In this document: in pieces, positions 9,102 to 11,552 of the stretch
How the letters are laid out: the number at the start of each line of letters is the position of its first letter
Position numbering within the stretch: the stretch's first letter is position 1
NCBI GenBank assembly: GCA_029004215.1
Contig: JAQULH010000009.1
Coordinates: 1 to 39,675 of the forward strand
From: Patescibacteria group bacterium
GTDB lineage: Bacteria; Patescibacteriota; Patescibacteriia; 2-12-FULL-60-25
DNA length: 39,675 bases
Direction of reading: 5' to 3'
Translations under genes and position numbers: made by a program
The notes under the pieces: model-generated
Databases searched by the model: none
What the model was told of the DNA's origin: nothing
What the model saw: the letters and a program-made list of their open reading frames with translations, nothing else

Positions 9102-9140
9102 AAAAACGCTCCGCAATACTGCGGAGCGTTTTTATTTTTT
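9102..9140. terminator. Bidirectional terminator between hup and the methyltransferase gene
   Basis: A 14-bp stem, AAAAACGCTCCGCA (9102-9115) with TGCGGAGCGTTTTT (9120-9133), loop ATAC, and T runs on both sides. It overlaps the stop codon of the minus-strand gene. Confidence 0.85.
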
Positions 9141-9854
9141 CATAACCAGAGCCACTAAGTTCCTTCCCTTAATCCAAGAACACCAGCTCTCTTTGTCATA
9201 AGCCCCGATTTTTTTAATTGACCAAAGGGCGGGCTTAAAAAGCGACTTGAATTCACTTAAAGTAAAAGCATGGACATAACGCTCTTCCAACTTGCCGCTG
9301 GCTTTCCAAGGATAATATAAATCGCCAGGCTCCCCGCCTTTAACGCCCCTGAGGCGCAACCAGGCATTCTTAAAAGTATTCCATGAAAAAAAGCGTATTG
9401 CCCGCGGATTCCAAACCGTTAAAAGCATCAAGCCACCGGGTTTTAAGATCCTGTGCAATTCAATAATAGACTCAGTGCGCATTTCTTGCGAAGGGATATG
9501 ATGCAGCACGGCAATGCATGCAATTGCGTCTGCATAACTCTCTTGGAGATCAAGCTTGGGCAAAGAACCTGCAACAACCTCGCCGTTATTCCGCAATGAT
9601 AAACGTCCCTGAGCCTCTTTGCGCAACGAATTTGAAGGTTCCACACCCAAATATCTGACACTACTTGGTATCACATCGGCCAACCTGCAATTGCCTGCAC
9701 CAATGTCGACCAATAAATCTCCTGACTTTAAGCGGTCTGTCAATAAACCCATCAGATTCCATGGCTGAGTCCGCTTAGAGCTAAAAGCTGAGCCTTCTTT
9801 CTCATAAAAATCAGCCACTTCCTTGGCCAACTTGCGCCTTACCCCGTTTTCCAT
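9132..9854 (-). CDS. Class I SAM methyltransferase, Trm9/ALKBH8-like (predicted tRNA wobble uridine)
   Basis: A 240-residue Rossmann-fold methyltransferase. The SAM-binding motif is LLVDIGAGNCRLADV, followed by VEPS at the end of the second strand, IACIAVLHHIPS (motif IV/post-motif) and LHRILKPGGLMLLTVW. Features beyond the generic fold resemble the Trm9/ALKBH8 family: ADFYEKEGSAFSSKRTQPW near the N terminus, a YYPW block around residue 180, RYVHAFTLSEF and the final KGRNLVALV. Members of that family methylate cm5U34 of tRNA to mcm5U34. It lies back to back with elp3, whose product makes cm5U34, 42 bases away. The specific role is inference from motifs plus context; general SAM-methyltransferase activity is secure. 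ATG 9854 is preferred to the TTG one codon earlier. Confidence 0.8.
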   Translation of the reverse strand: MENGVRRKLAKEVADFYEKEGSAFSSKRTQPWNLMGLLTDRLKSGDLLVDIGAGNCRLADVIPSSVRYLGVEPSNSLRKEAQGRLSLRNNGEVVAGSLPKLDLQESYADAIACIAVLHHIPSQEMRTESIIELHRILKPGGLMLLTVWNPRAIRFFSWNTFKNAWLRLRGVKGGEPGDLYYPWKASGKLEERYVHAFTLSEFKSLFKPALWSIKKIGAYDKESWCSWIKGRNLVALVMKK

Positions 9855-9896
9855 CAATATAGCTTACACTATAAGCTCCAAGATACAAGAAACAAG
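9855..9896. promoter_or_regulatory. Divergent promoter region of the Trm9-like gene and elp3
   Basis: 42 bases serve both genes. The inverted repeat AGCTTA (9861-9866) / TAAGCT (9872-9877) lies at its centre. TATAGT on the minus strand and TATAAG on the plus strand overlap this repeat, with possible -35 boxes TTGTTT (16-base spacer) and TTTTCC (17-base spacer). A single bound protein could control both genes. Confidence 0.5.
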
Positions 9897-11552
9897 ATGC
9901 AGCCATCTCCACCGCTCCAACTCGCAAAAGACATCCTAAAAGATGCGGCTGTTTCGAATTGCGCGACTAGGGTCAGTTTGGCGCTGGTTGCCCGGCATCA
10001 TCTAAAAGATACACCTTATGCTTTCCCAACATCCATGCAATTCTGGGAAGCTTACCGTGAACTTTTGGCTGAAGGTCTGGAAAGAAACGAACCACTCGAA
10101 AGAGCCATTCGAGTCAAAGACGTCAGGACGGATAGCGGCGTAGCCCCAATCACAGTATTAACCAAACCCTTCCCTTGCCCAGGGCGTTGTGTCTACTGCC
10201 CCACGGAAGCTCGCATGCCCAAAAGCTATATCTCGACAGAACCGGCAGCTGCCCGCGCTTTGAGTTTAGAGTTTGATCCTTATGAGCAAGTACGGCAGAG
10301 AATCATGGCTCTTGAGAAGAATGGACACCAAGCCAATAAAATCGAGTTGATTGTTAAGGGTGGAACCTGGTCGGCTTACACGGCAGATTATCGAGAGTGG
10401 TTTATAACAAGATGTTTTCAGGCAGCGAATGAAATCCCTCATCCTCCAACTCCTTCTCCCACTAGTGCAGGCGAAGGAGAGCTCGAAAAGGCTCAGACGG
10501 TTAACGAGACGGCGGCTTATCGCATTATTGGCTTGACGATTGAGACGCGACCCGATTGGGTCAAGCCCAAAGAAGTCATTCATCTGCGCAAATTGGGTGT
10601 CACGCGCATAGAGCTTGGTTTGCAAATCATTAATGACAGAGTTTTGACGCTGGTCAAACGCGGGACAACGGTGGCTGATGCTGAACGCGCAATAGCCTTG
10701 CTTAAGACCGCTGGTTTTAAAGTTGATGTTCATATTTTGCCCGGCCTGCCCGGGGCATCTATTGAAGATGACTTGGCGTCATTTCATCTTTTATTTGCTG
10801 ACCCACGCTTTCACCCTGACATGGTCAAAATTTATCCATGCGTAGTGCTCCCCAATTCAGAATTGGCAGAGTGGATGACAAAAGGCGAATTCAAGCCGCT
10901 TGAAGGCGAGAATCTACTCGAGTTGCTTATCAAGATGCAGACCATGGTGCCGCGTTATTGCCGTGTACCGCGTGTGATTCGCGATTTTCCCACGACTCAA
11001 ATCGCTTATGGCAACAAAAAATCCAATTTGCGCGAGATTTTGGATGCTGAAATGAAAAAACGCGGCGTCCAGTGCGTTTGTTTGCGTTGCCGCGAAGTCG
11101 GGCATGTGGCGGGTGACCATACCGGTGATAAAACTCAAGTTTTTGAGGAGCGTTATGAAAATGCCGGCGGTACTGAAGTCTTCTTGTCAGTTGAGAACGA
11201 AGATCGAAGCGCTGTTTTTGCATTTTTGAGGATGAGGCTCCCTCTATCCCCGACCCTTTCCCCCACAGATGCAGGGGAAAGGGAGATTATTTACTCTGCT
11301 TTTCCTATTTTGAAAGGTGCAGCCATAATCCGTGAGCTGCACACTTATGGCACGGCTTTAAATATTGACCAACGCGATCCTCTGGCGGCGCAACATAAAG
11401 GATACGGCCGGCTGTTGATGCAAAAAGCCGAAGAGATGGCGGCAGCCGAAGGCTTTAGCCACATGGCGGTGATCAGCGGCCTTGGCGTACGCGAGTATTA
11501 CAAAATGCTGGGTTACCAAAAGCAGGACACTTACATGGTCAAGCCGCTGTAA
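9897..11552 (+). CDS. elp3: Elp3-family tRNA uridine(34) acetyltransferase (radical SAM + GNAT)
   Basis: Catalytic subunit-like enzyme that forms cm5U at position 34 of tRNA from acetyl-CoA and SAM. It has 551 residues. The radical SAM cluster motif is C94-x3-C98-x2-C101 in PFPCPGRCVYCP, preceded by the Elp3 blocks KPTRTISG-like RVKDVRTDSGVAPITVLTKP. GLTIETRPDW, LGVTRIELGLQ and LPGLPG follow. The zinc/linker region has CVCLRCREVGH near 393-403. The GNAT domain occupies about 470-551 with acetyl-CoA loop QHKGYG and YYKMLGY at the end. Two odd stretches, about 181-197 (PHPPTPSPTSAGEGELE) and 447-464 (RLPLSPTLSPTDAGERE), are encoded by related in-frame palindromic insertions. Divergent from the Trm9-like gene. 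Confidence 0.92.
   Translation: MQPSPPLQLAKDILKDAAVSNCATRVSLALVARHHLKDTPYAFPTSMQFWEAYRELLAEGLERNEPLERAIRVKDVRTDSGVAPITVLTKPFPCPGRCVYCPTEARMPKSYISTEPAAARALSLEFDPYEQVRQRIMALEKNGHQANKIELIVKGGTWSAYTADYREWFITRCFQAANEIPHPPTPSPTSAGEGELEKAQTVNETAAYRIIGLTIETRPDWVKPKEVIHLRKLGVTRIELGLQIINDRVLTLVKRGTTVADAERAIALLKTAGFKVDVHILPGLPGASIEDDLASFHLLFADPRFHPDMVKIYPCVVLPNSELAEWMTKGEFKPLEGENLLELLIKMQTMVPRYCRVPRVIRDFPTTQIAYGNKKSNLREILDAEMKKRGVQCVCLRCREVGHVAGDHTGDKTQVFEERYENAGGTEVFLSVENEDRSAVFAFLRMRLPLSPTLSPTDAGEREIIYSAFPILKGAAIIRELHTYGTALNIDQRDPLAAQHKGYGRLLMQKAEEMAAAEGFSHMAVISGLGVREYYKMLGYQKQDTYMVKPL
10440..10484. repeat. Palindromic element inserted in frame in elp3, copy 1
   Basis: A pyrimidine-rich arm containing CTCCTTCTCCC faces a purine-rich arm containing GAAGGAGAG, around ACTAGTGCAGGC. 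It encodes PTPSPTSAGEGE and falls between conserved Elp3 blocks. It aligns base for base over most of its length with the copy at 11240. Confidence 0.7.
11240..11286. repeat. Palindromic element inserted in frame in elp3, copy 2
   Basis: CTCCCT...CCCTTTCCCC faces GGGGAAAGGGAG around CACAGATGCA. It encodes PLSPTLSPTDAGERE, a peptide type often produced by palindromic repeats in bacterial genomes. Confidence 0.75.

Follow-up and report, generated by a model that had tools for sequence, protein, structure and literature searches.

Two neighbouring genes in the analysed window, a stretch of 39,675 nucleotides from a Patescibacteria group bacterium, probably form a bacterial wobble-uridine pathway. 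We put the probability of this reading at about 0.77. In the proposed route Elp3 would use SAM and acetyl-CoA in radical SAM chemistry to carboxymethylate U34 at C5, giving cm5U34 in tRNAs of split boxes ending in A or G (Lys-UUU, Glu-UUC, Gln-UUG, Arg-UCU and Gly-UCC). A Trm9-like methyltransferase would bind the cm5U34 anticodon via R28, H118, R192 and N232 and esterify the carboxylate with SAM, resulting in mcm5U34. In a subset of the tRNAs C2 would then be thiolated by MnmA, whose gene lies in another part of the genome, to give mcm5s2U. In these bacteria the canonical MnmE-MnmG route (cmnm5U) is absent, and the two genes would take its place. Synthesis of cm5U34 from acetyl-CoA by radical SAM chemistry has been described for an archaeal Elp3 working alone (PMC13315578). 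The original prediction of a eukaryote-type wobble pathway made up of these two enzymes is supported by the homology of the methyltransferase to Trm9 and by the linkage of the pair, with mcm5U34 as the product that we infer.

Elp3 and its Trm9-like neighbour

The gene on the forward strand (9897-11552) encodes a protein of 551 residues with radical SAM and GNAT domains, the proposed cm5U34 synthase. TIGR01211 matches it as a full-length member (residues 62-550) with 526 bits against a curated cut-off of 350, and all top matches in the PDB are Elp3 chains from crystal and cryo-EM structures. The three radical SAM cysteines (C94, C98 and C101), which had been recognized from the sequence together with the GNAT domain, are invariant in a 21-member alignment, as are the linker cysteines of bacterial and archaeal Elp3 (C393, C395 and C398) and residues of the GNAT domain. 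Acetyltransf_1 scores slightly below its Pfam cut-off; the region lies within the TIGR01211 match. The named genomes closest to this one are Patescibacteria, with Uhrbacteria and Magasanikbacteria as the nearest named groups, so the host is probably a Patescibacterium of the ABY1 type, similar to Uhrbacteria.

The Elp3 gene itself shows some peculiarities. Two related palindrome-like repeats of 33 bp lie in frame within it (10449-10481 and 11253-11285) and encode loops rich in proline, serine and glycine. None arises in shuffles of the window, and one more weak copy is found on another contig of the same genome (C50). In two genomes of the same genus the Elp3 open frames are longer, with 708 and 743 residues (G006:C7 and G008:C5; loci L009 and L011). 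In both proteins the two matched parts are separated by a gap close to the GNAT domain, which suggests larger in-frame insertions.

The methyltransferase gene lies on the reverse strand (9132-9854) and encodes a class I SAM-dependent enzyme of 240 residues, for which we propose carboxyl methylation of cm5U34. Its start codon is ATG at 9854, with TTG at 9857 as a possible alternative. Pfam assigns generic domains alone (Methyltransf_11/12/25/23), and none of the NCBIfam methyltransferase models reaches its curated cut-off. The UbiE/MenG model gives 23.6 bits (cut-off 216) and the DVU1556 model 29.3 bits (cut-off 155); best matches to UbiE or small-molecule enzymes, which would have spoken against the original prediction, were thus not found. 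Comparison with structures led to Trm9 by sequence, profile and fold. A phmmer search of the PDB with the single protein placed Trm9 from Yarrowia (5cm2) first (E 1.8e-7, residues 26-225), at an overall identity of about 24-26%. The profile of a 36-member family did the same with E 6.4e-29, followed by phosphoethanolamine methyltransferases and others. Foldseek with an AlphaFold2 model (pLDDT 95) also ranked Trm9 first (E 2.6e-15, TM 0.81 by target length; next match 3.7e-13).

The generic Pfam domains and the many unrelated enzymes that the family profile matches via the SAM core would suit a methyltransferase of small molecules or proteins in general, for which Elp3 is no more than a conserved neighbour. 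Since the core gives all class I enzymes a similar look, a second profile was built from the part beyond the last core motif, without the SAM-binding core. Against 177,635 PDB sequences this C-terminal profile found Trm9 as its sole significant match (E 4.8e-6; next 1.6), which argues against the general enzyme. Hence, the closest solved relative of the methyltransferase is Trm9, outside the SAM core as well. The extra-core blocks noted at the outset for their resemblance to Trm9/ALKBH8 are present; FSSKRTQPW, PWK, RYVHAF and GRNLV lie where the family is most strongly conserved.

A further point against a general methyltransferase is the conservation of residues that bind tRNA and cm5U. In yeast Trm9 the mutations R29A, H115A, R241A, Y243A and N271A cause loss of tRNA affinity and kcat (PMC5372719). 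The positions were mapped through the Yarrowia enzyme, in which the distance from the TR arginine to the first histidine of HHF is 86 and that from the RYYH arginine to the DNWW asparagine is 30, identical to the yeast spacings. The bacterial counterparts are R28, H118, R192, V194 and N232. Over 114 distinct bacterial sequences R28 is conserved in 99%, H118 in 84%, R192 in 94% and N232 in 92%. Position 194, the counterpart of Y243, is Val in the window and is Tyr in 48% and Val in 29% of the same sequences. Thus, for three of the five residues both the mapping and the conservation are firm, whereas the fourth, N271, is assigned more tentatively: its match to N232 comes from a single gapped alignment of the C-terminal profile, and a global alignment, which placed N271 elsewhere, is ambiguous because the available Yarrowia chain sequence stops there. 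The full set of R28, H118, R192 and N232 is unique to this protein among the methyltransferases scored in its genome.

We use the label Trm9-like bacterial branch rather than calling the protein a member of Trm9, because no Trm112 was detected and one active-site position is variable. As judged from its sequence, this branch is predicted to work like Trm9.

Linkage of the two genes

The genes are divergent and 42 bases apart, as had been noted, with a common intergenic region at 9855-9896. Among 96 relatives 52 carry both genes, one the methyltransferase alone, five Elp3 alone and 38 neither (Fisher p 4e-20). When 145 genomes sampled evenly over the phylum were surveyed, counting methyltransferase matches above 100 bits, the numbers were 39, 1, 18 and 87 in the same order (p 3e-20); both tests assume independent genomes, an assumption that does not hold. 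Co-occurrence is therefore near-obligate from the side of the methyltransferase, with Elp3 present in 52/53 and 39/40 of the methyltransferase-positive genomes. The single methyltransferase without Elp3 in the phylum sample belongs to a genome estimated to be 78% complete.

The methyltransferase needs Elp3 and not vice versa, which is the pattern predicted for a downstream step. Elp3 occurs without the methyltransferase in 18 of the 57 Elp3-positive genomes of the phylum sample, about a third; the pathway can therefore finish at cm5U or at a different derivative. Distance matrices computed for the two proteins are correlated (r 0.61, 0/2000 permutations). Both this correlated divergence and the co-occurrence speak against a general methyltransferase beside Elp3, and together with the C-terminal match and the conserved residues they leave that explanation improbable.

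The arrangement is conserved too. In 45 of the 52 relatives with both genes they are divergent with less than 1 kb between them, and a methyltransferase is nearby in 64 of 80 named Elp3 loci and divergent in 62; these loci come in part from the same contigs as the survey of relatives, so that the two sets are not independent. The expected conservation of the pair is thereby found, the two genes being linked in many families within the phylum. Regulatory DNA is common to both members of a divergent pair and may keep them together on its own, so the two genes could be conserved neighbours without a functional link, held for instance by a shared promoter architecture. Against this, the genes are missing together in 38/96 relatives and 87/145 phylum genomes, and a few genomes retain both although they lie 3-5 kb apart or on different contigs. 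The intergenic repeat described below, moreover, is not conserved. We regard conserved proximity without a functional link as very improbable, and a functional pair remains our preferred reading.

Two observations are recorded here separately. One genome, estimated to be 99% complete, has a methyltransferase match (G076:C54:24114-24707, E 1.8e-20) but no detected Elp3, and may be an exception to the rule that the methyltransferase needs Elp3. Divergent pairs also occur in metagenome-assembled genomes labelled Subteraquimicrobium (Actinomycetota, L142) and Lysobacteraceae (L123), by lateral transfer or mis-binning.

The 42-bp gap had been described as a shared promoter region with a central inverted repeat. 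Such a repeat is present (AGCTTA-5-TAAGCT, 9861-9877), but its arm length of 6 bp is reached in about 2% of shuffles, uncorrected, and the close relatives examined lack it, including one with a 90% identical methyltransferase. A role as a regulator site was therefore rejected; the repeat is a matter of chance or of overlapping promoter boxes. No promoter of the sigma-70 type was scored within the gap. Downstream of the methyltransferase a second inverted repeat, bordered by A/T runs (AAAACGCTCCGCA-ATAC-TGCGGAGCGTTTT), was seen by eye at 9103-9132. It lies between the convergent HU-like and methyltransferase genes and is read as a putative terminator; it was not among the hits of the pattern scan.

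Wobble modification in the genomes

The canonical enzymes are missing where the pair is found. MnmG is above its cut-off in none of the 96 relatives and in 5 of the 145 phylum genomes (G098, G110, G114, G133 and G151), none of which has Elp3. Consequently, the absence of MnmG is nearly phylum-wide, and many genomes are without either C5 pathway. MnmE likewise is above its cut-off in 0/96 relatives, with partial matches to the GTPase domain only, as expected from other GTPases. The 2-thiolase MnmA is present in 92/96 relatives and in this genome. The U34 tRNAs of this genome include Lys-UUU, Glu-UUC, Gln-UUG, Arg-UCU and Gly-UCC, and the same five bear mcm5U or mcm5s2U in yeast (PMC5372719).

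Trm112 activates eukaryotic Trm9. Its domain (PF03966) was undetected in this genome; any match was found in 5/96 relatives and one above the cut-off in 2/96. Trm112 as a hidden partner was rejected on these grounds. The bacterial methyltransferase would accordingly act without it, and Trm11 of Thermococcales archaea belongs to a Trm112-dependent family able to work without Trm112 (PMC5372719).

The methyltransferase might also act on the U34 side chain and give another product, either before or with amidation or on a different acid. The last case has a bacterial precedent in CmoM, a wobble carboxyl methyltransferase that acts on cmo5U. Archaeal products differ as well, ncm5U34 having been reported on archaeal tRNA-Leu (PMC5372719). 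No model or structure of the CmoM type, however, ranks near Trm9, and the dependence of the methyltransferase on Elp3 fits a cm5U substrate, as judged from a survey that covered Elp3, MnmE, MnmG, MnmA and Trm112. We consider a different U34 product unlikely, if less so than a general methyltransferase, and mcm5U34 is still the product that we favour.

For the phylum as a whole we lean towards a wider conclusion with some reserve: much of Patescibacteria may have swapped MnmE-MnmG for a Trm112-independent route of Elp3 and a Trm9-like enzyme with bacterial MnmA, decoding by mcm5(s2)U34. Many tiny-genome Patescibacteria carry these back-to-back genes, which are apparently able to build a wobble mark described as typical of eukaryotes (mcm5U; PMC2584109), while the usual bacterial enzymes are missing. 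If this is true, bacterial Elp3 gains a defined downstream step, and the pair suggests how reduced genomes without MnmE and MnmG modify U34. It would also offer a minimal, Trm112-free model with two proteins for a pathway tied to human disease.

Relation to known systems

Compared with the methyltransferase domain of eukaryotic Trm9/ALKBH8 (5cm2), the bacterial protein shares the class I fold, the N-terminal TR..PW, the D..vPW block, the RYxH lid motif, the mapped tRNA-binding residues and the place downstream of Elp3. It differs in its identity of only about 25%, in the undetected Trm112, in the lack of an RRM/AlkB fusion, in the variable Y243 position and in forming a separate branch. According to a review from 2017, counterparts of the Trm112-dependent eukaryotic methyltransferases, Trm9 included, could not be detected among bacterial genes (PMC5372719). 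In the literature searched, which was confined to papers free of subscription, nothing directly relevant was found on the pair, on Elp3 or on U34 pathways in Patescibacteria.

Archaeal Trm9-like proteins clustered with Elp3 (Sulfolobus solfataricus; HVO_1032 type) resemble the present system in combining a lone catalytic Elp3 with a Trm9-like enzyme. The clustering in Sulfolobus was noted in 2008, when an archaeal product similar to mcm5s2U was proposed (PMC2584109), and archaeal versions were reported in Sulfolobales and Halobacteriales only (PMC5372719). Here, in contrast, dozens of Patescibacteria families are involved, with a conserved divergent layout. Elp3 from Dehalococcoides mccartyi (DmcElp3), termed a rare example of a bacterial Elp3 in 2019 (PMC6367351), also occurs without other Elongator subunits, but we found no description of a Trm9-like partner for it. 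The bacterial MnmE-MnmG/MnmA pathway (cmnm5s2U34) acts on the same nucleoside position and tRNAs and has MnmA in common; MnmE and MnmG, however, are missing here, and the C5 group would come from Elp3 and then be methylated.

In a phylogenetic tree yeast and haloarchaeal Trm9 group together (100/95). Most deep forks are unsettled and long branches meet, so the tree leaves the bacterial branch unplaced relative to archaeal and eukaryotic Trm9. If the proposed activity is correct, the question of the origin of eukaryotic Trm9 is raised. A phage or plasmid origin of the methyltransferase was rejected, since there were no phage matches and two plasmid matches, one of them a haloarchaeal Trm9-like gene. 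This gene lies on a megaplasmid of Natronorubrum bangense (L247:2956-3666) and is annotated only as a class I methyltransferase. Its top PDB match is 5cm2 (E 1.3e-16), and its alignment with the bacterial profile spans 196 columns (E 3.6e-30). About 1.8 kb from it lies a gene whose annotation is radical SAM protein.
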